From: an uncultured Alphaproteobacteria bacterium
GTDB taxonomy: Bacteria > Pseudomonadota > Alphaproteobacteria > Methylaequorales > Methylaequoraceae
DNA length: 44,972 nt
Direction: 5' to 3'
NCBI GenBank assembly: GCA_902590895.1
Contig: CACIYM010000006.1
Location: 1 to 44,972 of the forward strand
Under the pieces are notes generated by a model. That model saw only the letters and a program-made list of their open reading frames with translations, ran no database searches and had not been told where the DNA came from. The position numbers and the translations under genes were made by a program. Shown one piece after another: positions 16,201 through 44,768 of this stretch. Every line of letters begins with the position of its first letter. Position 1 is the stretch's first letter.

Positions 16201-18114
16201 TTAAATATAAAGAGTGCTTTTGTGTTTAAAGAAGACCTTCCACCACAATGCTAAATTTAATAAGAACCATATTCTAGTATCATCTGGTCTTTTTTCTAAT
16301 ATATTTTCAATTTCTTTAGAATTTAGTAGTTGAGTTTCATTTGCAAAACTAATTATAAGTTTTTTTTCTGATACTCCCAACCCTTCTTTTAGCCAATCTT
16401 TTAATGGTAGTCCAAATCCTTGTTTTTTTCTTTTTAATAAAAAACTTGGTAACAAATCATTTACACATATTTTTAGAATACATTTTAAATTATTATCCTT
16501 CAATTTTACATTACTTGGTAGATCAATCATTTTTTCTACTAATTTATAATCTAAAAAAGGAACCCTCCCCTCAAGAGAAGAAGCCATTGTCATTTTATCA
16601 ATTCTCATTAACAACAGCTCTGGCAATCTTAGTTTTAAATCAACATAAGTCATCCAGTTTATAAAACTTTTGTTCTGTGCTTTTCTCATAAAGCTTTTAT
16701 AATAATTTTTAACAACTTTCCAAGAATCTTCATTAATATATCTTTTCTTTAATTTTTCAGATAATATTTTTTTTTTCTCAGTATCAGTAAAAGCTTCAGC
16801 ACCACTCCAAAATATTGGTAGATTCTTTTTGGCTCTTAATAAAAGATCATATGAGTATTTATATTCAATTTTAAAAACTTTAAAAAAAATTATAAGAAAT
16901 GGAATACATATTTTTTTAAAAAAATAGTTGTCTAAAATTTTTTTTATTTTAAGGGTTCTCAACCAATTTGTATATCCAAAGAAAAGCTCGTCTGCTCCTT
17001 CTCCAACCTGACAAACTTTCACATTTTTATTGGTAGCAAGTTGTGATAAATAGTAAATAGGTATACAAACCGGATCAGAAATTGGTTCGTCTTGATGATA
17101 AATAATCTTTTCTAAAACATTAGTAAAATCTTCTTTGGAAAGTTTTTTTTCAAAATGGTTTGAATTTACATCCTCTGCAACTTTCTTTGCATATTTTAAT
17201 TCTGACTTATATGATGCATATTCTTTATCATAGCCAATTGAAAATGTATGAATTTTTTTTGAGTTTTTAGCTGATATATAAGCATTTGTAGAAGAGTCAA
17301 TTCCTCCAGACAAAAAAATTCCAGTCTTTACGTCTGCAACAAGTCTAAGTTTTATTGATTTTTCTAATTCATTTCTAATTGATTCAAAAAAGTTATTTTT
17401 TTTATCGTTAAAAACTACTGGATTTTGCAGAGGGTCCCAATATTTTTTTTTTTTAATTTTACCAGACTTCTCCACTATAAGAAATTGACCAGCCTCAATC
17501 TTATAAATTCCTTTAAACATTGTCTTTGGAGGGGGGGCACAGCAATATGTTAAATAATCAAACAAACATCTTTCATCAATCTCTTTTTTATAGGTTTTAT
17601 CCAACAGGATAGCTTTTATTTCTGAGGCAAAAATAATTTTATTATTATCAATTTTGTAATACATTGGCTTCACACCTAACCGATCTCTTACTAACCAAAG
17701 TCTTTGAAGTTTTTCGTCCCAGAGAGCGAATGCAAACATTCCTCTAAAATAATTCAAGCATTTTTCACCCCATTCAATATAAGAAAGTAAAAGTATCTCA
17801 GTATCCGAATTATTAGTCTTAAATTTATATCCTTTATTAATCAGTTTTTTTTTTATCTCTTCATAATTATAAATTTCTCCGTTAAATGCTAATATATAAT
17901 TTTTAGTTGGATCTACAAAAGGTTGATTCGCTTCTTTAGAAAGGTCTATTATTGACAACCTTGTATGACCTAAACCAATATTTTTCATTTTTGAAATCCA
18001 TATGCCAGATGCATCAGGTCCTCTATGTTTTAATATTAAATTCATGTTATGAATTTGTTTTTTTTTTACAAAAAAATTTCTATTAAAATACATTATTCCT
18101 GATACACCACACAT
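16201..18114 (-). CDS. asnB: Asparagine-synthetase-like glutamine amidotransferase (copy 1)
   Basis: A 637-residue two-domain enzyme. The N-terminal Ntn glutaminase begins MCGVSGIM, with Cys2 as nucleophile, and has RLSIIDLS and FNGEIYNY; the C-terminal ATP-pyrophosphatase synthetase domain has LSGGIDSSTN near residue 265, GEGADELFFGY and EGRVPFLDY. It uses glutamine ammonia and ATP to amidate a carboxylate. Housekeeping AsnB makes asparagine; in polysaccharide loci such enzymes are known or believed to turn uronic acids into uronamides, which fits this operon better. A second, clearly different copy lies at 40318-42147. The single-base TAATG overlap with the upstream dehydrogenase points to coupled translation. 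A 12-A run (17443-17454) lies in the coding strand. Confidence 0.85.
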   Translation of the reverse strand: MCGVSGIMYFNRNFFVKKKQIHNMNLILKHRGPDASGIWISKMKNIGLGHTRLSIIDLSKEANQPFVDPTKNYILAFNGEIYNYEEIKKKLINKGYKFKTNNSDTEILLLSYIEWGEKCLNYFRGMFAFALWDEKLQRLWLVRDRLGVKPMYYKIDNNKIIFASEIKAILLDKTYKKEIDERCLFDYLTYCCAPPPKTMFKGIYKIEAGQFLIVEKSGKIKKKKYWDPLQNPVVFNDKKNNFFESIRNELEKSIKLRLVADVKTGIFLSGGIDSSTNAYISAKNSKKIHTFSIGYDKEYASYKSELKYAKKVAEDVNSNHFEKKLSKEDFTNVLEKIIYHQDEPISDPVCIPIYYLSQLATNKNVKVCQVGEGADELFFGYTNWLRTLKIKKILDNYFFKKICIPFLIIFFKVFKIEYKYSYDLLLRAKKNLPIFWSGAEAFTDTEKKKILSEKLKKRYINEDSWKVVKNYYKSFMRKAQNKSFINWMTYVDLKLRLPELLLMRIDKMTMASSLEGRVPFLDYKLVEKMIDLPSNVKLKDNNLKCILKICVNDLLPSFLLKRKKQGFGLPLKDWLKEGLGVSEKKLIISFANETQLLNSKEIENILEKRPDDTRIWFLLNLALWWKVFFKHKSTLYI

Positions 18115-25353: not shown

Positions 25354-26415
25354 TTATATTCTTTTATAAATTCTATCTTTTAATTGTGTAAATACATTTC
25401 TAAGAAGTACAACTGCTGAAGAAGGATGAAAAAATAACATTCTTAGCATAAAAATTAAATTAAGGTTTAAAAGAAGAAACAAAAGAGTTTCATTAAATGG
25501 CTTAGAATTATAATGTAACTGAGTAATTGCAAAACCTATTGCTTTTTTTAAATAAAATCCTTTATCTTTTATTTTAGATAATCTCAAATATGTTCTATGA
25601 ATATTTTGCCTTTGTGGAAATGGCTCTAGTTTGTTTTCAATTTCATAAATTCTATTATTATTTATTCTAAGATTAAAAAAGTTGTTTTTAAATATATCCT
25701 CTTTATTAGGTAAAACTTTCTCGATTTTTATTTTTTTTGATAAAATTATGCTATTCGATTCAAATGATCTTCTTTTGGGAAAGAAATTATTTATTTTTTT
25801 GAAATTTTCCAGTCGCTCAATAATTCCTAAACTTATGTAATTTTTATTTTTTAAATGTTTCATTAAAACTTTAGATTCACCAGAATACTCTACTCTATCA
25901 TAAAAAGTAATATCTTGAACGAAAGCAATATCATTTAATCTTGGAAATAAATGGTTTATGTACCACTTGGCAAACCACTCATCATGACAAGAATCAATAA
26001 GTACCATATCTGGGTTAGCAAAACTTTTTGATGTTTCAACAACATCTCCAATGATAATTTCGTGATTTTTATAACTATAATTTTTTATATTATTTTTAAT
26101 TAGTTTTTTAGTATCAATATTAAATTTTTTTTTTTCTATCTCAAAAGAATAAAGTTTACCTGAATTATTTTGAGCTAAAGCACTTGTTATATAAATTGAA
26201 GAAAAACCACAATCTGGTGAAATTTCATAAACTATATTTGGCTTTCTTTCTCTAACCAAGCAATATAGGATTTCACCATCAAAATCTGAAAAAGTAGCTC
26301 TATACTTTCTAAAATTTGAATAATCTTGCCTTATCCTGTAAGTTAAAATTCTTAACTCATTAAAGTATTTTTTATAAATTTTAAAAAGATAAGTTTTGCT
26401 AATCTGATTTTTCAT
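25354..26415 (-). CDS. SAM-dependent methyltransferase, Methyltransf_24-like
   Basis: A 353-residue protein. Motif I is YEISPDCGFSSIYITSAL near residue 65 (the glycines are spaced as in the O-methyltransferase/class I fold), SFEIEKKK is the post-I acidic strand, and PDMVLIDSCHDEWFAKWY matches motif IV with D and H, which in related enzymes hold a metal. The second half, after about residue 220, has no recognised domain and ends in a hydrophobic stretch (FNETLLFLLLNLNLIFML) that may anchor it to the membrane. It overlaps the neuA-like gene by 17 bases, placing it in the nonulosonate operon. Methylation of the glycan is inferred; the target is unknown. Confidence 0.65.
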   Translation of the reverse strand: MKNQISKTYLFKIYKKYFNELRILTYRIRQDYSNFRKYRATFSDFDGEILYCLVRERKPNIVYEISPDCGFSSIYITSALAQNNSGKLYSFEIEKKKFNIDTKKLIKNNIKNYSYKNHEIIIGDVVETSKSFANPDMVLIDSCHDEWFAKWYINHLFPRLNDIAFVQDITFYDRVEYSGESKVLMKHLKNKNYISLGIIERLENFKKINNFFPKRRSFESNSIILSKKIKIEKVLPNKEDIFKNNFFNLRINNNRIYEIENKLEPFPQRQNIHRTYLRLSKIKDKGFYLKKAIGFAITQLHYNSKPFNETLLFLLLNLNLIFMLRMLFFHPSSAVVLLRNVFTQLKDRIYKRI

Positions 26416-27106
26416 AATTTATTTTTTGTTTAAAAAGTAGTGATGCAATTTCTAAATCATTTTCATCATCTATATCTATAGATTCTGAAAATTTCATTTC
26501 AAATGGAATTGTATTTTCATTATATAAACATTTCTTAAGTATTCTTTCTTTTGTTGCATAAATTGCGGCACCATTCCTTGCGAAATAAATAGGTTTTTCG
26601 TTACGATTAAAAATTTTTTTTGAATGTTCTGTATTAATTAAAAAATCATTCTTGATTTGCATTAGAGATTCAGGTGCAAAATTGTGAGGTACTTTTACAC
26701 AAGAAACTAGAGAATCCGAATTTCTGTTGGCAATAAGTTTTTTTAAAGCATAAGTAATATGTTCTGAATTTCTCAGAGGAGAAGTTGGTTGTAAAGTAAC
26801 AACTATTTCTGGATTATATCTTTTTTTTTTTTGTTTTTCCCATTCATAGACTATCACATTATGAGTTGGCGAATTATCATCAGACAAACTTTTTGGGCGA
26901 AGTTCATTTTTTTCTATATTGTACTTCTCTGATATTTTTTTAATTTCAACTGAATCTGTGGACACAATGATTTTATCAATTAGTTTACAATTTAATGCTG
27001 ATAAAATAGTCCAACAAATCAATGGTTTTCCGCAAAAGTCTTTAATATTTTTATCTTTTAAACCCTTTGAACCTTTTCTTGCAGGGATTATTGCTAAAAT
27101 CTTCAT
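26399..27106 (-). CDS. neuA: CMP-nonulosonate (acylneuraminate) cytidylyltransferase
   Basis: A 235-residue enzyme that joins CTP to a nonulosonic acid, giving the CMP-sugar donor. The diagnostic N-terminus ILAIIPARKGSKGLKDKNIKDFCGKP includes the CTP-binding ARxGSKG-x-xxKN signature; IIVSTDSVEI, LRPKSLSDD, TLQPTSPLR and NGAAIYATKERI follow, as in NeuA/PseF/LegF. Only one such gene lies in the window. Its neighbours neuC (one base away) and the neuB-like gene further on fit a sialic- or legionaminic-acid pathway in the cytosol. Which nonulosonate is used cannot be told from sequence. A run of 12 A is present at 26821-26832. Confidence 0.88.
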   Translation of the reverse strand: MKILAIIPARKGSKGLKDKNIKDFCGKPLICWTILSALNCKLIDKIIVSTDSVEIKKISEKYNIEKNELRPKSLSDDNSPTHNVIVYEWEKQKKKRYNPEIVVTLQPTSPLRNSEHITYALKKLIANRNSDSLVSCVKVPHNFAPESLMQIKNDFLINTEHSKKIFNRNEKPIYFARNGAAIYATKERILKKCLYNENTIPFEMKFSESIDIDDENDLEIASLLFKQKINYEKSD

Positions 27107-27107
27107 T

Positions 27108-28283
27108 TTAATAGTTAATCGTTTTCTGAACTTTTATATTTTTAATTTTTTCTAGAATATTTACAATTCTTTTTCCAGCTTTTCCATCACCATAAAGAAA
27201 ATCTTTATTGTATTTACCAATCTTAATTTGCATTTTTATCGCATTAATTATTTTTTTTTTATCGTATCCAACATCTTTAACATTCTTGCCTCTCTCTCTT
27301 AAATTCTGTCGTGAGCCTATATTCACACAAGGAACGCCAATATAATTTCCTTCTCTTATTCCGCTAGAAGAATTACCTACTATACATTTAGTTTTATTGA
27401 GAAGATGAATATATGTTTGTGTTGGTATGTTTTTAAAGAGTTTAGTTTTTTTTAAGCCACCTCTTTCTCTATAAATTCTAATCATTTTTGCAATTTCTCC
27501 TGAACCAGCGTCAGCATTTGGCCAAATAATAATTGATTGAATATCAAGATCGTTTACACAAGAAAGTAAAAGATCTATTTGATTTTTTATATCTAAATAT
27601 TCCGTGGTAACAGGATGATAACTGAATATTATAAAAGGCTTATCATAATCAATGTGATGGCCTACACCATCTCTAAGATCATCTTTATTTAGTTTTGTTA
27701 ATTCAAGGGTTTCATTTACAAAATCTATTCTTGGACAACCTACTTGAAAGATATTCGATGGATTTTCACCCATTTTTTTTACTCTAATTTTAGAATTCTT
27801 TGTGGCAACAAAATGTAGATGGGATAACTTTGTTAAAGCATGTCGAATTGATTCATCAATGGTTCCAGTTACTTCTCCACCCATAGTATGAGCTAGGGGT
27901 ATATTCATATATGTTGAAGAAATAGCTGTTGCCATTGTTTCAAATCTATCGCCTACCACAAAAACTAAATCTGGTGAAATTCTATCAAGACATGTAGAAA
28001 TTTCAATTAATCCAAGACCAGTTGATTTAGCCATTGTCAACGGTTTCTCTCCCTCTACGAGAGTGTAAATTTTGTCATTAATTAGGAACTTATCCTTTTT
28101 CAATAATTCAGAAATATCTCCGTATCTATCTAAAATTGAAGAGTTGAACAAAATAATCTGAATATTAAAATTCAAATTTTTTTGAAACTCTGTCATAACT
28201 GTTTTAATTGAGCTATAGTTAGCTCTTGAACCCAGAACAAAACATATTTTTTTCTTAATTATTTTTTTATTAAATCCCATCAT
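27108..28283 (-). CDS. neuC: UDP-GlcNAc 2-epimerase, hydrolysing (NeuC/LegG family)
   Basis: A 391-residue enzyme hydrolysing UDP-GlcNAc (or UDP-diNAc-bacillosamine in LegG) to ManNAc-type sugar and UDP, giving the substrate of the NeuB synthase. Signatures: CFVLGSRANYSSIKTVM near residue 15, VVGDRFETMATAIS, AHTMGGEVTGTIDESIRHALTKL, HPVTTEYLD, and the UDP-site VGNSSSGIREGNYIG. It differs clearly from WecB in the window in the GSRANY versus GGARPNF start. Two ATG codons (28283 and 28280) are equally possible starts; the upstream dioxygenase gene overlaps by 14 bases. neuA begins one base downstream. NeuC or LegG: the choice depends on a missing aminotransferase, so I keep the general symbol. 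Confidence 0.82.
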   Translation of the reverse strand: MMGFNKKIIKKKICFVLGSRANYSSIKTVMTEFQKNLNFNIQIILFNSSILDRYGDISELLKKDKFLINDKIYTLVEGEKPLTMAKSTGLGLIEISTCLDRISPDLVFVVGDRFETMATAISSTYMNIPLAHTMGGEVTGTIDESIRHALTKLSHLHFVATKNSKIRVKKMGENPSNIFQVGCPRIDFVNETLELTKLNKDDLRDGVGHHIDYDKPFIIFSYHPVTTEYLDIKNQIDLLLSCVNDLDIQSIIIWPNADAGSGEIAKMIRIYRERGGLKKTKLFKNIPTQTYIHLLNKTKCIVGNSSSGIREGNYIGVPCVNIGSRQNLRERGKNVKDVGYDKKKIINAIKMQIKIGKYNKDFLYGDGKAGKRIVNILEKIKNIKVQKTINY

Positions 28284-31791: not shown

Positions 31792-32784
31792 TTATGATTT
31801 TTTTAGGTCGGAAAAAAAAATTTGACTATCAGTTTTTTTATTTTTATTTAAAATTCTACCGATAATCTTTTTATAATTTTTGGGGGGAATTCCGTCACCA
31901 GGTTTTTTAAATTTAATATCATCTTTATTGATTATTTCACCTTTTTTTTTTTCTCTGGCCATTACAATACTTTTTTGAAATGTTTGTCTCATAATTTTAA
32001 AACTATTCAGATTATTTTTATTTACAGGATTATCAAGCATTTTCCATACATTTTTAATCGACATACAATAAGCCTTAAATTCTTCGGGTTCTAAAGCAAA
32101 CTTTGCGTCACTTCCATACATTGATCTTGAAAAGGTGATATGTTTTTCAATAACTGTTGCTCCTAAAGCGGCTGCAGCTATACCTGCTTCTATTCCTAAA
32201 TAATGATCAGAGAAACCTATTTGTTGTTTAAACTCTTCTTTAAATTTTTGTATATTGTTAAGACCCACATTTTTAATATCGCAAGGGTACTGAGAAGTAC
32301 ACTGCATGACAATTAATTCATTTTTAGAAAGAACATTAATAGCCTCATTAATTTCTTTAAAATTACTCATACCAGTCGATAAATAAACTTTTTTTTTTGT
32401 TTTACCTATCTTTTCAATTAGTGGAAGATTAGTTAGTTCGCCTGAAGCAATTTTATAAGCATCAACATTTAAATGTTCTAGTATCTCAACCGATTTTTCA
32501 GAAAAAGGAGAACATAAAAATCTTACATTAATTTTTTTACAATGACTTATAATTTTAGTTAGTTGATTTTCTGAAAAAAGAATTCTTTCAAAGTATTTAT
32601 CTCTTTTTTCTGACTTGAAGTAAGGAGGAGGTTTTGCTCTTTTTGTCATCTCCTCATTTGCTAAATGATGTTGAAACTTAACAACATCAGCACCATTTTT
32701 TTTTGCTAGTGAAATTAAATTTAAAGCATTGCCTATTGAACCATCATGAACAGAACCTATTTCAGCAATTATCTGTTTAATCAT
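31792..32784 (-). CDS. neuB: Nonulosonate synthase, NeuB family (copy 1)
   Basis: A 330-residue TIM-barrel enzyme that condenses phosphoenolpyruvate with a 6-carbon N-acetylated sugar (ManNAc type) to form a nonulosonate. Motifs in order: IAEIGSVHDGSIGNAL at the start, GADVVKFQHH, FLCSPFSEKS, AYKIASGELTNLPL, LSTGMSN, QCTSQYP, GFSDHYLG, and IEKHITFSR, ending in a short antifreeze-like tail (NKDDIKFKKPGDGI) of the SAF domain. Metal and PEP-binding residues look complete. It overlaps the ABC exporter gene by 8 bases. Together with NeuC and NeuA, its neighbours downstream, it makes a complete path to a CMP-nonulosonate. The second copy at 43749-44768 is clearly distinct. Confidence 0.9.
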   Translation of the reverse strand: MIKQIIAEIGSVHDGSIGNALNLISLAKKNGADVVKFQHHLANEEMTKRAKPPPYFKSEKRDKYFERILFSENQLTKIISHCKKINVRFLCSPFSEKSVEILEHLNVDAYKIASGELTNLPLIEKIGKTKKKVYLSTGMSNFKEINEAINVLSKNELIVMQCTSQYPCDIKNVGLNNIQKFKEEFKQQIGFSDHYLGIEAGIAAAALGATVIEKHITFSRSMYGSDAKFALEPEEFKAYCMSIKNVWKMLDNPVNKNNLNSFKIMRQTFQKSIVMAREKKKGEIINKDDIKFKKPGDGIPPKNYKKIIGRILNKNKKTDSQIFFSDLKKS

Positions 32785-34590: not shown

Positions 34591-35448
34591 CTAATTGAAA
34601 ACTACGATATCAGGAATATCATTTTTTATGGTAAATGGATTTACATGATTTACATAAGCACTCTGACAATCATCGATTCTAATTATCTTCGAAAAATGTT
34701 TTTGCAATACAGTATAAAACTGAGTTTCTGAAAAATAATAATTATGAAAAGGATTTAGTTGCTTTTTTTCAATTTCATTTGAAAAAACTATAATACCCTT
34801 ATTCCCTAAAAGACTTTTTAATTTTAAGATCGACCTATTTATATCTATACTATGAATTAATAAATGAAAACAGAAAATTGCATCAAATTTTGTGTCAATT
34901 TTTTTTTTTATTTCAAATATTCCATTTATTTCTCCGGGAATATCTATTAGTTGAATATTATTATCTTGAACATACTTTTTACAATTTGAGGAGAGCTCCA
35001 TTCCATAAATCTTAGCGTTAAATTTTTTTTTTAAGAAGTCTACTGAGTTACCAAACCAGTATCTAAGAATCAAAATTCTTTTCAAATTAAAATTATTTTC
35101 TCCAAAAAAATTATCCCAATTTCTTAACCTTTTTTTAAAATATGTATTATTAAAAGATTTTAGAAAATCACTTTTTGGTGGATAAGTTGAAAAGTTTTTT
35201 TCTGATGTTAAATGATCTTTGTTAATTAAATTGAAAGTTTTAAGTTCATCTAAATTTAATTTATTAAAATTCTGACTAATACCACAAACTTCACATATAC
35301 CATTAATTTTATTTTTTAATTTGAAGGCTATTTTTTTGTCAAATAGGTTGGGATTAAAATCTAATGAACTCTTAACTTTTTCATATTTAACTAAATCAGA
35401 ATGACAAAAGGAACATCTGTATTTTTTTTTTTTCAAAAATCCTAACAT
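34591..35448 (-). CDS. Zinc-ribbon SAM methyltransferase
   Basis: A 285-residue protein. The first 60 residues carry two CxxC pairs, CSFCHSD at residue 12 and CEVCGIS near 53, which should bind zinc. The methyltransferase core follows: the motif I region KRILILRYWFGNSVDFL is degenerate and lacks the usual glycine triplet, then YGMELSSNCKK and AIFCFHLLIHSID for motif IV. So the cofactor loop is unusual, although the fold layout is clear. It sits between the ABC exporter (8-base gap) and two more methyltransferases. The N-terminal zinc domain is like that of sugar-modifying C- or O-methyltransferases. Activity is less sure than for its neighbours; a run of 12 A is at 35422-35433, near the start. 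Confidence 0.62.
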   Translation of the reverse strand: MLGFLKKKKYRCSFCHSDLVKYEKVKSSLDFNPNLFDKKIAFKLKNKINGICEVCGISQNFNKLNLDELKTFNLINKDHLTSEKNFSTYPPKSDFLKSFNNTYFKKRLRNWDNFFGENNFNLKRILILRYWFGNSVDFLKKKFNAKIYGMELSSNCKKYVQDNNIQLIDIPGEINGIFEIKKKIDTKFDAIFCFHLLIHSIDINRSILKLKSLLGNKGIIVFSNEIEKKQLNPFHNYYFSETQFYTVLQKHFSKIIRIDDCQSAYVNHVNPFTIKNDIPDIVVFN

Positions 35449-35474
35449 TAAGCTCTAGCTTAAAAAATAAACAA

Positions 35475-36164
35475 TTATTCTTTTACCCCGCAAAAGGTAT
35501 AATGAAAACCGTCACCTTCCTCACTAGTAAATTTTCCGCTGTACCAGCCAAGATGCATTGGTTTGAACATTGAAAATTTATTGCACAATTCATCTTGATT
35601 CTCAGTAAAAAATATATAGTAATCTTTACACTGATATCTAGAGTTAGTGAAATTCACACACCTTAACCAGTCATCATCCGTTTCTTTCGAATTTTTAAAG
35701 TATTCTTCAGATTTAGTACCCATCATTGTTGCAAAAAAAACACCACCTTTATTTAATTGACTGTATAACTTCTCCATTAAATCTTCAAAATCTTTTCTAG
35801 TAAAATAATATAGAGATTGAAATGCAGTTATAACGTCATATTTTTCTAAGTTGCCATAATGTTTATTATTCAAAGGTTTTGGGTCACATAATGAAAAAGA
35901 ATTGGCAATACCTGGAAATCTATGCCTGGCAACATCAATATCAAACTTTGATATATCAACACCGTAGGAGTCAAATTTTAGACCCGCATAGTAATTAACT
36001 GCGGCACCTTGACCACATCCAAAATCTAAAAGACTAGTATACTTCTTAGGTAGTTTGAAATAGGGTTTTAAAATTCTGCCATATAATCTAAAAACATGGT
36101 GATCGACCATTGGAGCTGTATAACCATTCTCCCAGTAATCAGCGTTACTTTTTAAATAATCCAT
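35475..36164 (-). CDS. Class I SAM-dependent methyltransferase
   Basis: A 229-residue methyltransferase. Motif I is LLDFGCGQGAAVNYY near residue 45, GVDISKFDIDVARHRF contacts the cofactor, and VITAFQSLYYFTRKDF matches motif IV; GGVFFATMMG is strand 5. Substrate-facing residues are not recognised. I start at ATG 36164; the in-frame GTG at 36176 adds four residues and cannot be excluded, since neither has a clear ribosome-binding site. It lies in the run of three methyltransferases between the WbpG-type amidotransferase and the ABC exporter. A sugar target is inferred from context only. It has fewer lysine-rich tracts than its neighbours. Confidence 0.8.
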   Translation of the reverse strand: MDYLKSNADYWENGYTAPMVDHHVFRLYGRILKPYFKLPKKYTSLLDFGCGQGAAVNYYAGLKFDSYGVDISKFDIDVARHRFPGIANSFSLCDPKPLNNKHYGNLEKYDVITAFQSLYYFTRKDFEDLMEKLYSQLNKGGVFFATMMGTKSEEYFKNSKETDDDWLRCVNFTNSRYQCKDYYIFFTENQDELCNKFSMFKPMHLGWYSGKFTSEEGDGFHYTFCGVKE

Positions 36165-36213
36165 AATATGAGTCACACTATCAAATTAAAGTTTTATTAC
36201 AAGTGTTATGTTC

Positions 36214-37026
36214 TTAAGTAATTGAAAAGATACTTCTTATAGTATATTTTCCACTAGGTTCGATAACACTCTCAATTTTTAAACATTTTAAATCCAGTTT
36301 TTTGCAAAGAATCTTCAGTGAATCTTTTGAAAAAACATGAAAATGTTCAATCGTAAATTCCTCTCTATTTTTTCCATCTTGACTAGCTTTAACATCAGGA
36401 ACCTCAACATAAAGAAAACTTCTTTTTTTTAAAAATTTTAATGATTTCTTTAACATTGCTTCGGGATTAATTATATGTTCAATGACTTTATTGAATGTTA
36501 TAATATCAAATTTTTTTTTTGTTTTTAAATCAAAAAAATCTTTATTGTAGGTTTTTACTCCAATATTTTTTTTTATATGTTCTATATTTCTTTTATCTGG
36601 ATCTAACGCTGTGATCTTTAAGTTACTTTTATTCACAAGCCATGGAAAAACTCCTAATCCAGAACCTACATCAAGTATTTCAATCGCCTTCTTATCTAAA
36701 AAAAACGAGTTTAAAAAATTTGAAATAAACTTAAATCGTTTTTCATTATCTGAACTCCCTTTGGGTAAACTTATCAACCTATCAAATGTCTTTTGCATTC
36801 CTAGTCCATAAGTAATTTCTGTATATTCCCCATCATAAAATTTAGAGAAGTCATAGTTTACTTTTCCACACATATGACCACATTTTTTACATTCGTAGTA
36901 TTCTCTATAATAATCACTTTTATCAATTTTAAAATCAATTTCTACGTCAGGTTTACTCGTATATTTAAATTTTAATTTCAAAGATTTTTTTTGGCAAATT
37001 GGACAAAATAAAGTTTTACTTTTCAT
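36214..37026 (-). CDS. Zinc-ribbon SAM methyltransferase
   Basis: A 270-residue protein with an N-terminal zinc-binding knot (CPIC at residue 8 and CKKCGH near 46), followed by a class I methyltransferase core with ILDVGSGLGVFPWLV as motif I near 115, TALDPDKRNIEHI after it and ITFNKVIEHIINPEAM as motif IV, and LYVEVPDVKAS and HFHVFSKDSL near the C-terminus. This order, zinc knot plus Methyltransf_23-like core, is found in many sugar and polyketide methyltransferases. The start overlaps the small gene upstream by 11 bases. An 11-base A-run and a TTTTG tract are present but no frameshift. Target unknown. Confidence 0.8.
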   Translation of the reverse strand: MKSKTLFCPICQKKSLKLKFKYTSKPDVEIDFKIDKSDYYREYYECKKCGHMCGKVNYDFSKFYDGEYTEITYGLGMQKTFDRLISLPKGSSDNEKRFKFISNFLNSFFLDKKAIEILDVGSGLGVFPWLVNKSNLKITALDPDKRNIEHIKKNIGVKTYNKDFFDLKTKKKFDIITFNKVIEHIINPEAMLKKSLKFLKKRSFLYVEVPDVKASQDGKNREEFTIEHFHVFSKDSLKILCKKLDLKCLKIESVIEPSGKYTIRSIFSIT

Positions 37027-37411
37027 TGGATTTGTTAAAAATAAACTCTATTTTTTTTAAATCGTTAATTTCATCAAGCCTACAAATAACTTCTAGTGAT
37101 TCCTGTTTCATATATTTTTTAAGTTCTTTTTCCATTCCTATTTCCTGTAAAAGTACAAAATATCTCTCTGTTATTTTATTTTTTACAAGTATAGACTTAT
37201 AACCTTTATTTTTTAATCGCACATTTAGCGATGGAGTTGCATAATAACCCCATTTTTTTTTTACTACGTCATACTCTAAATTTTTATTTTTAGATTTAAA
37301 AGTAATCATTTCGTTTTTATCTAAATAGACAGAACCACAATCTTTTATTATCTCAAGTTTTTTTAAACCAGTAGGAAATTCTCTTTTTTTTTTTTTTAAA
37401 TTTATCCTCAT
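37016..37411 (-). CDS. Small basic protein coupled to the WbpG-type amidotransferase, unknown
   Basis: I do not recognise this 131-residue protein. It starts MRINLKKKKREFPTGLKKLE, is rich in lysine, has no membrane segment and no cysteine motif, and contains the segments GSVYLDKNEMITF and KKWGYYATPSLNVRLKNKGY with a mostly beta-strand pattern. The start is at ATG 37411: it gives an ATGA overlap with the amidotransferase stop, and a GGAG sits 6 bases upstream. Earlier in-frame codons (TTG 37423, ATG 37417) are less well placed. It also overlaps the following methyltransferase. Codons 5 to 10 hold a run of 14 A (37384-37397). Context suggests a partner of the amidotransferase, but no function is claimed. 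Confidence 0.6.
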   Translation of the reverse strand: MRINLKKKKREFPTGLKKLEIIKDCGSVYLDKNEMITFKSKNKNLEYDVVKKKWGYYATPSLNVRLKNKGYKSILVKNKITERYFVLLQEIGMEKELKKYMKQESLEVICRLDEINDLKKIEFIFNKSNEK

Positions 37412-38523
37412 TTCCATCTCCAACTATCAATTAAAAAATCTTTGATTTTCCACTTTTTTCCATCTAGATACCAAATTTTTTTGTTTCTGAATTTTTCACT
37501 TTTTCTCTCAAATTCACTTTTAGTTATATTTGTTAATTTACAAAACTTTTCTATATCTTCGTTTGGTCTTTGATCCCCAATTTTTTTCAATTTCTCAATT
37601 GCATATTTTCTATTAATTCTATTATTTCTAATTTCAATTGATAAATTATCAAAATATCTAGTGAACCCAAATTTATACCATTTCATCCAGTGATGTATCG
37701 ATATAAGATTATCATCTATATCAGCAAAATCATAAAGGCCTGTTTTAAGATTACTTTTTTCATAATAAAAACCATTTTTTTTTGCTACCTTCATTGTATT
37801 AATTGGATCCCATTTAAAAAAATAACCTAAGAAAATACCTTCAACATCAAATTTATTTAATATACCTTTTTTTGGCAACATATAAGGTGATAGGTCTTTT
37901 TCAGTAAACGTTTTTGAGACCCAATTCTTAGCGTTAGTTTGATTAGTTGCTCCATATTTTTTTATCCACTTAGCATTAACATTTGCACCAAAATCATTCT
38001 TTACTCCCCCATACTCAAACGCTGAATTCTCTCCCCAAATTATTAACGGTATCTTAAACGTGCAAGCTATTCTCACAGGGAGATTGTAAATAGCCAAATG
38101 CATTGGAATTAAGGGAGATCCTGATTTTTCAAATGTTTTCAGCATAAACTTTGATTCAATTTTTGGATTAATTGTGAAGTCGATATGGTTAACACCCAAA
38201 CTTACAAGATTTTTTAAATTTTTCTCACCGATAAGTGTTCTTTCTGGAGTTTTCCATGTAAGTGTTAATGGTTTAAGACCATACTTTAAAGCAATTACAA
38301 CCTGCCAGACACTATCTTTCCCCCCGCTAACCGGTATTAAACAATCATATTCAGCTTTTTTTTTTTTTATTCTTCTAACTAAGTTTTCAAACTCAAGTTT
38401 TCTTTTTTCCCAATTTATTTGTTTTTTGATTTTACCTTGTTCACAGGCATTACAGACACCTTTGCTATTTATTACTAAATTAGGTCTTGTGCTTGGCAGC
38501 ACACATTTTTTACACCACTTCAT
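37408..38523 (-). CDS. N-acetyl sugar amidotransferase, WbpG/PseA family
   Basis: A 371-residue PP-loop ATP pyrophosphatase. Two zinc-type pairs open the protein, CKKC at residues 4-7 and CNAC near 24-27, after MKWCKKCVLPSTRPN; the PP-loop IPVSGGKDSVWQ is near residue 64; PLTLTWKTPERTLIGEKNL, WGENSAFEYGG and HHWMKWYKFGFTR follow, all typical of WbpG. The family puts an amidino group on an N-acetyl sugar, with ammonia made by HisH/HisF-like subunits in Pseudomonas. No such subunits are in the window; the gene instead overlaps a small unknown gene by four bases. A 13-A run (38356-38368) lies in the lysine codons after the PP-loop. Acetamidino-sugar formation is inferred. Confidence 0.85.
   Translation of the reverse strand: MKWCKKCVLPSTRPNLVINSKGVCNACEQGKIKKQINWEKRKLEFENLVRRIKKKKAEYDCLIPVSGGKDSVWQVVIALKYGLKPLTLTWKTPERTLIGEKNLKNLVSLGVNHIDFTINPKIESKFMLKTFEKSGSPLIPMHLAIYNLPVRIACTFKIPLIIWGENSAFEYGGVKNDFGANVNAKWIKKYGATNQTNAKNWVSKTFTEKDLSPYMLPKKGILNKFDVEGIFLGYFFKWDPINTMKVAKKNGFYYEKSNLKTGLYDFADIDDNLISIHHWMKWYKFGFTRYFDNLSIEIRNNRINRKYAIEKLKKIGDQRPNEDIEKFCKLTNITKSEFERKSEKFRNKKIWYLDGKKWKIKDFLIDSWRWK
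37418..37421 (-). promoter_or_regulatory. Ribosome-binding site deciding the start at 37411
   Basis: GGAG on the minus strand, within the end of the amidotransferase gene, lies six bases before ATG 37411 and directly against the alternative ATG 37417. Spacing favours 37411. A clear Shine-Dalgarno-like sequence is rare in this window, so translation of the small gene appears to be actively coupled to its upstream neighbour. Confidence 0.5.
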
Positions 38524-38600: not shown

Positions 38601-40304
38601 TTATTTTTTAGAAATATAAAAGTTGTTGAGAAAAAGAGCATCTAAGCCTGAACTAAAAAACGTTCTAATAGCATCTTGTGGAGAACAAACGATTGGCTCT
38701 CCTTTAACATTAAAACTTGTATTTAGCAAAATTGGAATTTTTGTTTCTTTATAAAAATTATTAATTAAGTTATAAAATTTCGGATTAATTCTTTTTGAAA
38801 CCGTTTGAAGTCTAGCTGAACCATCAACGTGCACAACAGCAGGGATTAACTTTTGTTTTTCTTTTTTTACTTGTAATGTTTTACTCATAAAAAAGGAATT
38901 TTGTACATTTATAAAAAAGTCTTCAACTTTATTCTCAAGAATTGAAGGAGCAAAAGGTCTGAAACCTTCTCTATATTTAATTAAATGGTTTACTTTATCT
39001 TTCATTTCTTGACGTCTTGGATCTGCTAAAATACTTCTATTTCCTAAAGATCTATCACCAAATTCTAAGGCTCCCTGGAACCATCCTATAACTTTTCCCT
39101 CACATATATCTTTAACGGCAACCTCTTCTGGATTATTTAAAAACTTAAAAGTTAATTTATAAGTTTTTATAATTTTTTTTATTTCATTATCACTGAATGA
39201 TGGTCCTAGGTAATTATGTGTTAACTTGTTAAGTTTTTTCTGATTAAAAATAGTATGGTTTACATATAAGGCCGCACCTATTCCGACACCACTATCATCA
39301 GGGAATGGGGGAATGAAAACCTTTTTAAAGGGAGTATTACTTAAAATTTTTCCATTAAGTGAACAATTTAAGGCACAACCACCAGCAAAAACCAGAGTTT
39401 TATTTTGAGTGAGTTTGTTTAATCTATGCATTAAATGAATGCAGATATTTTCAAAGATTTTTTGGACACCTGCAGACAAATCATAATATTCCTTCGATAA
39501 TTTTCTTTCCGGTACATTTGGTTTAATTCCTAAATGACCAATTAATTTATCAGAAAATAATCCTGGGCGATGAAATTGAAAGTGATTGAAATAATTTAAG
39601 TTTAATTCAAATCCATCTTTGATTGGATAAATTAGTTCCTCAAGTTTTTTTAAAAACCTTTTTTCGTCGCCGTATGCACTAGCACCCATTAGTTTCCACT
39701 CGTCACTTTGAGGCCTAAATCCCATAAAAGATGTGAAAGCAGAATAGAAAGATCCCAAGGAATGCGGGAACTCTTGGGACCATATAGAAGAAATCTTTGA
39801 GCCCTTACCTAAAAAAAACTCAGTACACTGTTTTTCTCCAAAAGCATCTATAGTCAAAATTGACGAAGAAGAGAAGTCAGATAAATAATATGATGAAGCG
39901 TGTGCCAGATGATGTCGAATAAAAAAGATATGAATTTTTTTTTTTTTATAATGTATTATTTGTTCAGATACATCGCCAACATTTGGATCAAGGTTAATAA
40001 AATTATTTACTACATTGTGAAAAATTTCTCCTAAAAATCTGGTTTGACCAAAATTAAAAGCAGTATTTAAATTTTCTAAATTAATTGCTGGGTTCCATCC
40101 AATTGCTATAAAGTCAATATCCTCTAGTTTGAGACCAAATTTCTCAAAAATATAATTCACTGCTTTAATTGGAAATTTCCTCGTTCTCTTTTCTCTATTA
40201 AGCCTTTCCTCCTCAACAGCAAAAAATAACTTATTGTCAATAAATAAACTACAGGATGTATTAAATCCGGAGCTATTTATACCTAAACAAACTTTTTTTG
40301 ACAT
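38601..40304 (-). CDS. Carbamoyltransferase, NodU/CmcH family
   Basis: A 567-residue enzyme that transfers a carbamoyl group from carbamoyl phosphate, through carbamoyl-adenylate, to a hydroxyl of a sugar. The N-terminal Kae1-like domain has LGINSSGFNTSCSLF, FFAVEEERLNREKR, RHHLAHASSYYLS (metal-site histidines) and LTIDAFGE; the ATP-site FAGGCALNCSLN and the C-terminal YrdC-like domain with LNTSFNVKGEPIV complete the family order. A 13-A run (39935-39947) precedes the histidine motif. It starts 13 bases after the asnB-like gene. In a polysaccharide locus it should carbamoylate a sugar residue, as NodU does on Nod factors. Sugar target unknown. Confidence 0.87.
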   Translation of the reverse strand: MSKKVCLGINSSGFNTSCSLFIDNKLFFAVEEERLNREKRTRKFPIKAVNYIFEKFGLKLEDIDFIAIGWNPAINLENLNTAFNFGQTRFLGEIFHNVVNNFINLDPNVGDVSEQIIHYKKKKIHIFFIRHHLAHASSYYLSDFSSSSILTIDAFGEKQCTEFFLGKGSKISSIWSQEFPHSLGSFYSAFTSFMGFRPQSDEWKLMGASAYGDEKRFLKKLEELIYPIKDGFELNLNYFNHFQFHRPGLFSDKLIGHLGIKPNVPERKLSKEYYDLSAGVQKIFENICIHLMHRLNKLTQNKTLVFAGGCALNCSLNGKILSNTPFKKVFIPPFPDDSGVGIGAALYVNHTIFNQKKLNKLTHNYLGPSFSDNEIKKIIKTYKLTFKFLNNPEEVAVKDICEGKVIGWFQGALEFGDRSLGNRSILADPRRQEMKDKVNHLIKYREGFRPFAPSILENKVEDFFINVQNSFFMSKTLQVKKEKQKLIPAVVHVDGSARLQTVSKRINPKFYNLINNFYKETKIPILLNTSFNVKGEPIVCSPQDAIRTFFSSGLDALFLNNFYISKK

Positions 40305-40317
40305 ATTTTCTAACTAG

Positions 40318-42147
40318 TTAAGAATAAGCTTCCATAAAGAACTTTGCATTAATAAAATTAAATAAAAACTTACTTTCACTATTAGTTAATTTATCAGAAA
40401 ATGAGTTTCTTATTTTTTTTCTATCAATAATTTCAAATATAGGACTATCTTCAAGTAACATTTTTTCAGTTTTTTTTTCATTAAAATTTACAAAGTTTTC
40501 TAGTGGCATATTAAATCCTACTTTTCTTGGATTATTTATTATGTCGGGTGGTGCAATTCTTTTTACTGATTCTCTAAGTATATATTTACCATAACCATTT
40601 TTTATTAAAAATTCAGTAGGAACTTGAAGTAAGAACTCATAAAGGTCTTTATCAAGAAAAGGTGATCTGTTTTCTACAGAATAATACATTGAATTTAAAT
40701 CGTCCTGATGAAGAATTTGAGGAACTGTTTCATTAAACATTTCGTTTGACATTCTATTTCTAAGTAAAATGTCTGAATATTTAAATTCATAAAAATCCTC
40801 ATTAAATTCGTCAACTAAATATTCTTTAAATTTATTTTGATTCAAATATATATGTCCTCTTTCATTAATATCTTCCATAAAATGTTTTTCATTTCTCAAA
40901 AAAGGATTTCTAATATACTTTTTAACTTTATCTTCCCAATCTTTTAAGCATTTTGAGTATTCATCTTTTTTAAATCTTTTCATATAGCTTAGGAAAGCAT
41001 TATGATGATCATAATATCCAGTGTAAATTTCATCCGCGCCTGTACCACTAATTGAAACCTTATATCCTTGACCACTAATCTCTTTCATTAACCTCCACTG
41101 AGCATAATAGGATATAGTTAATACGGGACCATCATAATAACAAATTTGTTTTTTAAGATTTGTAAAAAAATTATCATTTTGCAGTGTTTTTTTTGTGTGC
41201 TTAAGTTTCAAAGTTTTTGAAGCATAATTAATCATATCAAGTTCTTCGTATCTCTTATCTTCATTAATTATTGAAAAACCGTGTACTTTATAATCAAACT
41301 CTCTGCAAGCAATTGAAATTAAAGAAACTGAATCAACTCCTCCACTTAGACAAAAAGCTATGGGGACATCTGACCTTAAACGAAGTTCCACAGATTTTCT
41401 AAGTAACTCATAGGATTTAGAAACTATATCAAATTCTGTTAGCTTTTTATTATAAAAATCAAATTTAGGTTCCCAATATTTATTTTTCTTCAAAACAAGA
41501 TTTTTATCAATTTCATAATAACTTGAAGGTTCAACTCTTTTTAATCCATCAAAAAAAGTATCTTTTTCTTTGAAAATTGATTTATAACCGTTAATCAAGT
41601 ACCTCTTAATGTGCGAAAAATTAATTGGAAGTTTTCGCCCTAATAAACTAAAAATAAATTTTGGTTCAGAACCAAAATAAATTCCATCACTGTCTTCAAA
41701 GTAGAAAAGTGGTTTTTCACCAAATCTATCTCTAGAAAGAAAAATTTTTTCGTTTTCTTTTTCATAAAAGACAAAAGCCCACATCCCTTCACAACTTTCT
41801 AATGAGTTTATTCCCATATTTTTAATCAGTTTAAAAAGTACCTCTGTATCACCTAAAGTTTTAAAATCAATATCTTTTCTGGCTAATTTTTTTTTTATTT
41901 CTTTGTAATTATAAATTTCTCCATTAAAGCTCATAGCATCTCCAATATTATTTTTGAAAGGTTGGTTTGAACCCGAACCTAAATCGATAATACTTAACCT
42001 ACTATGGATGAGTACCAAATTATTTGTATTTTTAGATAAAAAATAATCACAATGATTTGGGCCTCTCCTCTTCATTAACATTTGACATTCTTTAATTTTT
42101 GAAACCTCAATATCTCTTTTCCCAAAATATCCTGCAATTCCGCACAT
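40318..42147 (-). CDS. asnB: Asparagine-synthetase-like glutamine amidotransferase (copy 2)
   Basis: A 609-residue relative of the enzyme at 16201-18114. The glutaminase domain opens MCGIAGYFGKRDIE with Cys2, then RLSIIDLGSGSNQP and FNGEIYNYKEI; the synthetase domain has FCLSGGVDSVSLISI near residue 265, GTGADEIYTGYYDHH and ENRSPFLDKDLYEF. Both domains look intact, so it should amidate a carboxylate with glutamine nitrogen. Two asn-synthetase-like genes in one glycan block suggest at least two amidated sugars, or amide donors for the modified nonulosonates; neither is likely to be the only housekeeping AsnB. It lies between the deacetylase (two-base gap) and the carbamoyltransferase. Confidence 0.83.
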   Translation of the reverse strand: MCGIAGYFGKRDIEVSKIKECQMLMKRRGPNHCDYFLSKNTNNLVLIHSRLSIIDLGSGSNQPFKNNIGDAMSFNGEIYNYKEIKKKLARKDIDFKTLGDTEVLFKLIKNMGINSLESCEGMWAFVFYEKENEKIFLSRDRFGEKPLFYFEDSDGIYFGSEPKFIFSLLGRKLPINFSHIKRYLINGYKSIFKEKDTFFDGLKRVEPSSYYEIDKNLVLKKNKYWEPKFDFYNKKLTEFDIVSKSYELLRKSVELRLRSDVPIAFCLSGGVDSVSLISIACREFDYKVHGFSIINEDKRYEELDMINYASKTLKLKHTKKTLQNDNFFTNLKKQICYYDGPVLTISYYAQWRLMKEISGQGYKVSISGTGADEIYTGYYDHHNAFLSYMKRFKKDEYSKCLKDWEDKVKKYIRNPFLRNEKHFMEDINERGHIYLNQNKFKEYLVDEFNEDFYEFKYSDILLRNRMSNEMFNETVPQILHQDDLNSMYYSVENRSPFLDKDLYEFLLQVPTEFLIKNGYGKYILRESVKRIAPPDIINNPRKVGFNMPLENFVNFNEKKTEKMLLEDSPIFEIIDRKKIRNSFSDKLTNSESKFLFNFINAKFFMEAYS

Positions 42148-42149
42148 AT

Positions 42150-43055
42150 CTAAGTAACCATTATTCTTTTTAAATTAAATAAAGAAGTATTAATTGTATT
42201 AGTTCCTTTTATAGCAGTTGGAGATGAAACAATTCCAAACTTTTTTAACACTTCAATAACCTTTTTATTGTAAGAACCTTTAAAACCTTCAGGATAAGAA
42301 AAATTTTTAACTTCTAATCCACACTTTTTTTTAAGAAAATCAATACTTGTTTTAATTTCCTTCTCTAATTCTTTTAATTTTAAATGTGATAAAACTTTGT
42401 GCGTTTTTGTATGTGCACCAAAGCAGATTAATTTGTCTTTTGAAAAAATACGTATTTGCTTTGAATTTATTTTTTGATCAAGAAATTTATCCTTGTGAAT
42501 ATTTTTAATTTTCAATTTTTCTAAAATATAATTTGAAAATTTAGTTGGATCAATTTTTTTAGATTTTTTAACTTTATCTCTTATTTCATCAATTATTTGA
42601 ATTTTTTGGTCAATGTTAATTATACAAACCTCTTTTTTACTCCAAGGTAGTATCAATCTTTTTTCTTTAGTATGTTCGAAAGCATATTCAATCTTATCTG
42701 TCCAAGACATTTCATTTTTCTCAGAAAAATCTGAAGTAACATAGATGGTAAATGGCATCTTTAAATTTAGTAAAATTGGTGCTGCTATACTTAAATTATT
42801 CTCAAATCCGTCATCAAACGTTATAGAAAATGAATAATCAGGAAATTTTTCTTTTTTTATTATGTGTGCGCTTAACTCGTCAATTGATATACAATTTCCA
42901 TTTTGATCTAAATCTTTTATGATTTTTTTAAACGTTTTTAACTCTAAATGTTTATTTGTATAGTTTCTTAATAAAAAATTATTTTTAGGAATAACACCAT
43001 GAAATAAAAAAATAGTATGACTATTTTTTTTAAGATAATTAGAATAATTAATCAT
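42150..43055 (-). CDS. Polysaccharide deacetylase, CE4 (NodB) fold
   Basis: A 301-residue protein whose NodB-type metal motifs are intact: TIFLFHGVIP near residue 14, SITFDDGFENN near 75 (motif 1 catalytic and metal aspartates), HTKTHKVL near 220 (motif 2, H-x-x-x-H), and FSYPEGF near 255 (motif 3). About 130 residues separate motifs 1 and 2, longer than in compact NodB, so it has an insert of unknown role. It has no obvious signal peptide. The enzyme removes N- or O-acetyl groups from a sugar in the glycan. It overlaps the formyltransferase gene by 8 bases, which would fit removal of an acetyl group before formylation of the amine. Fold is good; substrate is inference. Confidence 0.78.
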   Translation of the reverse strand: MINYSNYLKKNSHTIFLFHGVIPKNNFLLRNYTNKHLELKTFKKIIKDLDQNGNCISIDELSAHIIKKEKFPDYSFSITFDDGFENNLSIAAPILLNLKMPFTIYVTSDFSEKNEMSWTDKIEYAFEHTKEKRLILPWSKKEVCIINIDQKIQIIDEIRDKVKKSKKIDPTKFSNYILEKLKIKNIHKDKFLDQKINSKQIRIFSKDKLICFGAHTKTHKVLSHLKLKELEKEIKTSIDFLKKKCGLEVKNFSYPEGFKGSYNKKVIEVLKKFGIVSSPTAIKGTNTINTSLFNLKRIMVT

Positions 43056-43752
43056 TTTTTTTTAATAACTCAAAATTTTTAATACATTTTACAATGAGAC
43101 AACTAGGAATTGATGAATAATATCTTCCTTTATTTTTTTGATTAATTTTTTTTATTTTTTTACCTAAAGATATCTCTTTAATTAATTTTTTTGATAGTTT
43201 TGCACAGGTTTGTGTGTTGAAAATTTGAAAATGAAAAATATCAGGTATTTCACTTAGAATAATTTTTTCTTTACTGTATATTTCTCCACAATCAACTCTC
43301 AACGTTAAATGATGAAGTGTTGAAACAAGTCCATCTATATCTTTATGATACATAGACCATAGATGAGAATCTAGACCTCTGTAATTTTCTGGGTCTCCTC
43401 CATGCAAATTAAATAAGTTCGTCGGAAGTTTATCAATAGTTCTAGCATTAAGAATTTTTGTACCAAAACAAATAGCCAAGTCAAAAATATTATTTCCTAA
43501 AAAATTCAAAGATTCATCTGAATTTATACAGTCTATATACTTTGTAAAAGTAAAGTCACTGAGATGTGTCTTTTTTTTAAACCAAAACCTATTTTCAATT
43601 TCTTCTCGTTTTAAAAAAAAATTAGACTGAAAATTTTTTTTTCTTTTTTGAGAGTTTTCTGAAATGACTGTAATATTTTTTTCAACTTTTAATAACTCAC
43701 TTAAAAAAAAAATATGATGAGGTGTCTCTGTCGTCAGAATTAAGATTTTCAT
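43048..43752 (-). CDS. Sugar formyltransferase-like protein (Formyl_transf_N)
   Basis: A 234-residue enzyme of the methionyl-tRNA formyltransferase catalytic fold. The N-terminal strand is MKILILTTETPHHIFFL; the active-site motif is FNLHGGDPENYRG, where the N-H pair of the usual NxH...D triad is present; the expected catalytic aspartate is in RVDCGEIY, like the DTGxI of the family. The usual SLLP of the motif is replaced by GGDP, and no C-terminal OB domain is seen, so it is not a housekeeping Fmt. In sugar loci these enzymes formylate 3- or 4-amino sugars using N10-formyl-tetrahydrofolate. It overlaps the NeuB gene by four bases and the deacetylase by eight. Confidence 0.75.
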   Translation of the reverse strand: MKILILTTETPHHIFFLSELLKVEKNITVISENSQKRKKNFQSNFFLKREEIENRFWFKKKTHLSDFTFTKYIDCINSDESLNFLGNNIFDLAICFGTKILNARTIDKLPTNLFNLHGGDPENYRGLDSHLWSMYHKDIDGLVSTLHHLTLRVDCGEIYSKEKIILSEIPDIFHFQIFNTQTCAKLSKKLIKEISLGKKIKKINQKNKGRYYSSIPSCLIVKCIKNFELLKKND

Positions 43753-44768
43753 AACAAATTAGATTTACTAAAAGACTCAGAAAATTTCATTTTTTTTTTT
43801 ATTTTTTTTCCTATTATTTCTTTTTTTTCAATAATTCCATTTCCTGGGCGAACCCATATTAAATCATTTTCAATAATTTTTTTTTTTGCATTTAACGATC
43901 TTGATGCGGCTAAAGATCTTCTAGTTGGAAGTAAATTTTCTTTTTCACAATCTTGAATCATAAGATTTCCTGTTCCTGTTGCATTATAGAATTTTTTTAT
44001 TCTAGTTATCAAAGTCTTCATTTGTTTCGGATCTGCTGAAAGCTTGTGGTCTCTAAAATTCGAAAATTTTCTATCCAAAGTAAAATGTTTTTCAATAATA
44101 TTAGCACCCATAATTGAAGCAATATATGCAGCTTCTATTCCTATCACATGGTCTGAATAACCCACAATCACATCCTTAAATTTTTTTTTTAAAGAAAGGA
44201 TTTTTTGTAAGTTTGCATCCTCTAATTTAGTCGGATAAGCAGATACACAATGTAAAAAAACTAAAAATTTATCATCAGTAAAATAACCCCATTTTTTTTT
44301 GAAAAGATTATAAATTTTTTTTAGAAGTGAATAATCTGAAAGACCTGTAGATATAATTACAGGTTTATTGTAAGAGATTATCTGTTCAATTAAGGGGAAA
44401 AAATTATTATCTCCAGACGAAATTTTAAAAAATTTTTGGTATTCATTCAAAAACTCTGCACTTTCATTATCAAAGGGTGTTGAGAAGACAGTTATTCCCA
44501 TGTTTTTTCCATAATCAATTAATTTTTTGAAATCGTCGTAACTTAATTGAAATTTTTTAAGTTTTTTTAACCTTTCTTTTTGATCATTAGAGTAATAAAG
44601 ACTTGGAACAAACGTTTGAAATTTAACAGCATCGACACCACACTTGTATGCTTCAAGAATAATTTTTTTTGCAATTCTTAAACTACCTTCGTGGTTATTA
44701 CCTGCTTCGGCAAATACAAAAGTTCTTTTAGATGATTTTAAATTTTTGAGACTAAAATTTAATAACAT
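43749..44768 (-). CDS. neuB: Nonulosonate synthase, NeuB family (copy 2)
   Basis: A 339-residue member of the NeuB/PseI/LegI-type synthases, which join phosphoenolpyruvate to a sugar. Motifs: VFAEAGNNHEGSLRIAKK, GVDAVKFQTFVPS, FSTPFDNES, KISSGDNNFFPL, ISTGLSDYS, LHCVSAYPT, GYSDHVIG and IEKHFTLDR, then DHKLSADPKQM, and the C-terminal SAF domain with WVRPGNGI. The NNHEGS and KLSADP wordings differ from the first copy, so the two probably accept different sugars. It starts 18 bases after the stop of the truncated epimerase gene at the window edge and ends in an ATGA overlap with the formyltransferase. No dedicated CMP-sugar synthetase for it is in view. Confidence 0.87.
   Translation of the reverse strand: MLLNFSLKNLKSSKRTFVFAEAGNNHEGSLRIAKKIILEAYKCGVDAVKFQTFVPSLYYSNDQKERLKKLKKFQLSYDDFKKLIDYGKNMGITVFSTPFDNESAEFLNEYQKFFKISSGDNNFFPLIEQIISYNKPVIISTGLSDYSLLKKIYNLFKKKWGYFTDDKFLVFLHCVSAYPTKLEDANLQKILSLKKKFKDVIVGYSDHVIGIEAAYIASIMGANIIEKHFTLDRKFSNFRDHKLSADPKQMKTLITRIKKFYNATGTGNLMIQDCEKENLLPTRRSLAASRSLNAKKKIIENDLIWVRPGNGIIEKKEIIGKKIKKKMKFSESFSKSNLL

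Follow-up and report, generated by a model that had tools for sequence, protein, structure and literature searches.

The window, i.e. the complete stretch of 44,972 nt analysed here, is AT-rich (26% G+C) and carries a long surface-polysaccharide locus of a marine bacterium. The following genes and features are relevant to the present analysis:

16201-18114: second AsnB-like gene, with a GATase domain
36214-37026, minus strand: MT1, class I SAM methyltransferase (PF13489, E 1e-20), at the same position in most cassettes
37016-37411, minus strand: SMALL, an unnamed 131-residue protein (ATG at 37411, stop ending at 37016)
37408-37411, minus strand: ATGA stop/start overlap of WbpG and SMALL (WbpG stop 37410-37408, SMALL start 37411-37409)
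37408-38523, minus strand: WbpG/WbuX-family N-acetyl sugar amidotransferase (TIGR03573) of the SMALL-associated clade WbpG_a, 371 aa
37411-37446, minus strand: codons of the WbpG_a-specific C-terminal tail, residues 360-371, IKDFLIDSWRWK
38601-40304, minus strand: NodU/CmcH-type carbamoyltransferase between AsnB and WbpG (PF02543, PF16861)
40318-42147, minus strand: AsnB-like glutamine amidotransferase of the cassette (PF00733, PF13537; N-terminal Cys, SGGVDS, SGTGADE)
42150-43055, minus strand: polysaccharide-deacetylase-like protein of the cassette (PF01522), recurring in cassettes
43048-43752, minus strand: formyltransferase-like protein of the cassette (weak Formyl_trans_N and ArnA/Fmt matches), recurring in cassettes
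43749-44768, minus strand: NeuB-family nonulosonate synthase of the cassette (PF03102, E 4e-65)

The WbpG protein of the window is a member of the N-acetyl sugar amidotransferase family. TIGR03573 (WbuX) matches it with 335 bits (cut-off 203.2; E 6e-100), the PP-loop SGGXDS is present as SGGKDS at residues 66-71, a motif invariant in our alignment A5, and the tetracysteine zinc motif CXXC-Xn-[GN]XCXXC is found with C4, C7, G22, C24 and C27. The initial annotation of this DNA had described an intact PP-loop amidotransferase, which holds true. Going by the WbpG family alone, its product would be an acetamidino sugar. The predicted structure (pLDDT 91) is closest to 8WEX, the LpNASAT of Legionella pneumophila (PMC10607449), which is the sole solved family member that we found (Z 37.9, rmsd 2.1, 341 residues, 28% identity); the account of LpNASAT mentions neither HisH nor HisF nor glutamine. 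NadE is among the next-best fold neighbours.

The overlap between the WbpG stop and the SMALL start is exact, as had been claimed, and the 3' end of SMALL in turn overlaps MT1 (start 37026) by 11 bases. For SMALL we used the ATG start; the mechanical ORF list has a TTG four codons upstream of it. A GGAG precedes SMALL by a few bases, and such a site was present in only three of the 31 window genes checked, so that the initial annotation rightly called the ribosome-binding site rare. Its value as independent evidence of coupling is nevertheless weakened, since the GGAG lies within TGG-AGA-TGG, which encodes W-R-W of the conserved WbpG tail, and could be explained by selection acting at the protein level. 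SMALL is not a chance ORF: an equally long open frame arose in one of 2000 shuffles, and the frame is kept across phyla in homologues that are 29-50% identical.

Among 31 genomes of the same order one homologue of SMALL was detected, and a plasmid of Azospirillum brasilense encodes another; scanning genome, viral and phage collections with a single sequence returned none. With a three-sequence profile, 24 loci were recovered from GTDB genomes, which belong to the Alpha-, Beta- and Gammaproteobacteria, Nitrospira, Verrucomicrobia, Pirellulales, Latescibacterota, Tectomicrobia and Methanomicrobia. A sample of 385 genomes from the class yielded 15 with SMALL and the phylum sample of 398 genomes yielded 3, the window's own genome being counted in both. 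SMALL is a real, unnamed family of Proteobacteria, Nitrospira, Verrucomicrobia, Planctomycetes, archaea and others. The alignment of 37 homologues has ten invariant residues. Invariant polar positions are R10, D48, Y57, S61 and N63, and E34, K52, R65 and E90 are near-invariant. In G111, two SMALL genes stand in tandem (L060, 9138-9512 and 9540-9893, plus strand), the second being divergent. A natural fusion of WbpG and SMALL was not seen.

The structure of SMALL is predicted with confidence (pLDDT 92.9) and found no convincing match by Foldseek, with best E values of 1.5 against the PDB and 0.34 against BFVD. The best VIA match, a phycobilisome linker domain (Z 3.8), covers 46 residues of the C-terminal half and is not meaningful. 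No Pfam family matched in a search with all 37 members, the known glutaminases (HisH class I, GATase_6/7, Amidase) included, and single, weak NCBIfam matches to omptin and lanthipeptide families were taken as chance, in agreement with the earlier description of the protein as unrecognised. Also, SMALL is not a cysteine glutaminase, because the cysteine of its DCG motif is replaced in L028, L035, L058, L059, L062 and L063.

The conserved gene order of the cassette starts with a Gfo/Idh dehydrogenase, a DegT aminotransferase, an SDR epimerase, a GNAT protein and NeuB, sometimes continues with the formyltransferase and the deacetylase, and ends with AsnB, WbpG, SMALL and a methyltransferase. The gap between AsnB and WbpG is mostly below 100 bases in other cassettes, which leaves no room for the carbamoyltransferase. 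SMALL may also be several genes off in the same cluster (L058-L060, L062 and L063) or 17 kb away (G697). In the window, three methyltransferase-like genes follow SMALL in a row (34591-37026, minus strand), and in L057 SMALL and MT1 constitute one frame of 406 aa (1577-2797, minus strand). The two AsnB-like enzymes of the window both have GATase domains, as initially annotated. Asparagine synthetases carry an SGEGADE or SGEGSDE motif, whereas the cassette AsnB has SGTGADE, which suggests a substrate other than aspartate; with its glutaminase and synthetase motifs intact, this enzyme most likely serves a substrate of its own.

In Pseudomonas, enzymes of the WbpG type obtain ammonia from HisH/HisF-like subunits. 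Neither HisH nor HisF was found in the window, as the initial annotation had stated, and dedicated genes for the two are missing beside its amidotransferase. Throughout the recovered assembly (1.07 Mb, 43 contigs, 71% complete), contig C31 alone encodes a full HisF and a HisH above cut-off, and the gene order there, hslV-hisB-hisH-hisA-hisF, is that of an ordinary histidine operon. Because the assembly is incomplete, the absence was retested in more complete genomes that also have the WbpG and SMALL genes: G111 (100% complete), G326 (98%), G121 (95%) and G152 (94%) encode no full HisF except beside hisA. Among about 120 WbpG neighbourhoods read, most of them drawn from the class sample regardless of SMALL, none of the 34 SMALL-type WbpG genes has HisH or HisF at a distance of up to 4 kb, as against 72 of the 87 others. 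As a genomic pattern, the association of SMALL with loss of HisH/HisF has strong support, and at the WbpG locus SMALL and HisH/HisF are mutually exclusive. Both systems can share one cluster, for example in L016 and L020, in which another WbpG, accompanied by HisH/HisF of its own, follows 5-7 kb downstream, or one genome, as in G343 with both kinds of cluster. The known systems WbpG/HisH2/HisF2 and WbuX/WbuY/WbuZ (TIGR03573, TIGR03572) have the same amidotransferase family, PP-loop and zinc motif as the window WbpG; in place of HisH/HisF within 4 kb, WbpG of the SMALL type has SMALL, AsnB and usually a methyltransferase. This form of a known amidotransferase system, which does without HisH/HisF and has an unnamed, obligate-looking partner, is in our view real and unusual. 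As a side observation, L016 (14227-16317, plus strand), L188 (6701-8710, plus strand) and L201 (3521-5602, plus strand) have a HisF-WbpG fusion, encoded as a single frame of about 690 aa downstream of HisH.

The WbpG genes split into two sets by their score against the cassette profile, a model trained on cassette members, and independently by a tree built separately from that profile. In this maximum-likelihood tree WbpG_a is one clade of 32 (SH-aLRT 100) that holds nearly all SMALL-associated WbpG. The pair L037 and L061, termed WbpG_c, falls outside it, although a single origin of all SMALL-associated WbpG was not rejected (AU p 0.38). WbpG_a proteins are distinguished by a conserved C-terminal pattern, F-L/I-I-x-D/E-W-x-W: the W-x-W ending is present in 32 of 34 WbpG_a rows and in 0 of 93 other WbpG rows. 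It is absent from WbpG_c, where SMALL is present. About 30 further residues are specific to the clade, many of them inside the catalytic body. In the model of the window protein the tail is extended and of low confidence, and its W-x-W either coincides with the end of the part matched to 8WEX (model residues 1-366) or falls outside it; the tail might act as a docking peptide. A separate WbpG clade without HisH/HisF (SH-aLRT 99) comprises L165 (5416-7979, plus strand), L140 (3900-6403, minus strand), L131 (7206-9667, minus strand) and a related WbpG in L138. In three of these four loci the next gene encodes a GatA-like amidase-signature protein (PF01425), possibly a third ammonia source.

Which gene of the cassette does SMALL follow? 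In the class sample of 385 genomes, the set of 15 that encode SMALL is identical with the set in which WbpG_a (14) or WbpG_c (G326) was found, while about 63 other WbuX-positive genomes have no SMALL and, in the places read, no WbpG_a. A WbuX match was also present in 18 of 18 genomes checked with GTDB SMALL loci and in both new genomes of the phylum sample. As the 15 genomes span ten family codes, relatedness alone is not enough to explain the match, which horizontal transfer of the whole cassette would help to produce. It has to be considered that the co-occurrence is mostly seen within a single cassette, which may be transferred as a whole and all genes of which therefore co-vary; the distance correlations of SMALL with WbpG (0.82) and MT1 (0.83) do not single out WbpG. 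SMALL is unlinked in G135, G406 and G412 (on another contig, or 88-210 kb away), each of which has a WbpG_a cluster. In short, the homologues of SMALL were adjacent to one type of WbpG or shared a cluster or a genome with it. Neither this result nor the search of the recovered genome for further HisH/HisF speaks against the initial annotation. In two genomes of one genus, unlinked SMALL genes lie outside a sugar cluster (L064, 9560-9949, minus strand; L065, 9468-9845, plus strand), next to what we take from the sequence to be clpA, with clpS in L064.

Clusters with NeuB, AsnB, HisH, HisF and WbpG exist without SMALL (L118, L120, L130, L132, L151 and L169), and no SMALL was detected anywhere in genomes G268, G081, G032, G150 and G216, which have AsnB-HisH-HisF-WbpG clusters, or in G018, whose cluster has NeuB, HisH, HisF and WbpG with no AsnB seen. 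SMALL therefore does not simply follow NeuB or AsnB. Nor does it require MT1 nearby, as seen in L061, L066-L068 and L032. Among the cassette genes, WbpG_a/c are best followed by SMALL. In AsnB, the glutaminase and the synthetase PP-loop are intact in SMALL clusters and in HisH/HisF clusters alike, and since the AsnB type is common to both, AsnB is not simply a replacement for HisH/HisF. This weakens the earlier suggestion that AsnB-like enzymes are the alternative ammonia source.

On balance, with somewhat better than even confidence, we propose that SMALL is the obligate partner of a HisH/HisF-free WbpG_a clade in a widespread nonulosonic-acid cassette, where it replaces HisH/HisF. The initial annotation had put forward such a replacement; its genomic side is borne out by the co-occurrence with HisH/HisF-free WbpG, whereas the idea that SMALL might supply or recruit ammonia is hypothetical. 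SMALL would bind WbpG_a, plausibly through the conserved C-terminal tail, and would complete or close its active site, such that the ATP-activated acetamido group could be aminated without an ammonia channel delivered by HisF. The ammonia might derive from the free pool or from another glutaminase. Use of the free pool is known from NadE, an NH3-dependent PP-loop NAD synthetase that works without a glutaminase of its own; NadE shares the fold of WbpG_a and nothing more, its substrate being different and SMALL being absent. The methyltransferase after SMALL may N-methylate the acetamidino group, by analogy with PtmH after PtmG. According to PMC3766260, PtmG of Campylobacter and ORF28 of Legionella are amidotransferases for an acetamidino nonulosonic acid, which PtmH and ORF8, respectively, are reported to N-methylate. 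Likened by role, these pairs are a plausible model for WbpG_a and MT1; no counterpart of SMALL is described with them in the passages considered.

A less probable, yet serious alternative is that SMALL, as an enzyme or a binding protein, serves another step in making the same sugar, earlier or later than that of WbpG_a, that WbpG_a departs from other WbpG because it has a different sugar, and that loss of HisH/HisF is a property of WbpG_a alone. The invariant polar residues of SMALL would be compatible with an active site, SMALL can be encoded away from WbpG, and many clade-specific residues of WbpG_a are in the catalytic body; however, SMALL matched no enzyme fold, and the AsnB/NeuB clusters that have HisH/HisF and no SMALL indicate that it is not needed for that part of the pathway. 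Improbable in our view is that WbpG_a draws ammonia from the glutaminase of the adjacent AsnB-like protein and that SMALL forms a bridge between them. Nearly all complete cassettes have AsnB immediately upstream of WbpG_a, and SMALL is flanked by two AsnB genes in L061, but the same AsnB type occurs with HisH/HisF, and having both active sites intact in either kind of cluster it should use its ammonia itself.

Quite unlikely, too, is use of the housekeeping HisH/HisF in trans, with SMALL being unrelated to ammonia: although nearly all SMALL-bearing genomes have a hisA-adjacent HisF of the his operon, most other WbpG genes keep dedicated HisH/HisF, even in G240, G127 and G112, where a hisA-linked HisF is encoded as well. 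The least credible assignment is that of SMALL to MT1, e.g. as a subunit, instead of to WbpG. Their adjacency is common and L057 joins them in one frame, and yet SMALL occurs with WbpG in the loci listed above that have no MT1 nearby.

Acetamidino sugars are constituents of LPS and flagellar glycans in Legionella, Campylobacter and Pseudomonas, and to our knowledge the nitrogen supply of their amidotransferases has hardly been studied. The exact exchange of HisH/HisF for SMALL, seen in several bacterial phyla and in methanogenic archaea, makes this question testable, provides a lead to the function of a family without name or matched fold, and offers SMALL as a marker for a widespread nonulosonic-acid cassette. 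It is conceivable, if still doubtful, that SMALL represents a novel kind of partner for amidotransferases, a small protein other than a glutaminase that frees a PP-loop sugar amidotransferase from HisH/HisF, and that evolution has redesigned the ammonia supply of the WbpG family (HisH/HisF, SMALL and perhaps the GatA-like amidase of another clade).

The window also encodes a second NeuB-type synthase (31792-32784, minus strand), a NeuC-type epimerase (27108-28283, minus strand) and a CMP-sugar (PseF-like) transferase (26399-27106, minus strand), from which a second nonulosonic acid seems to be made by the same locus.
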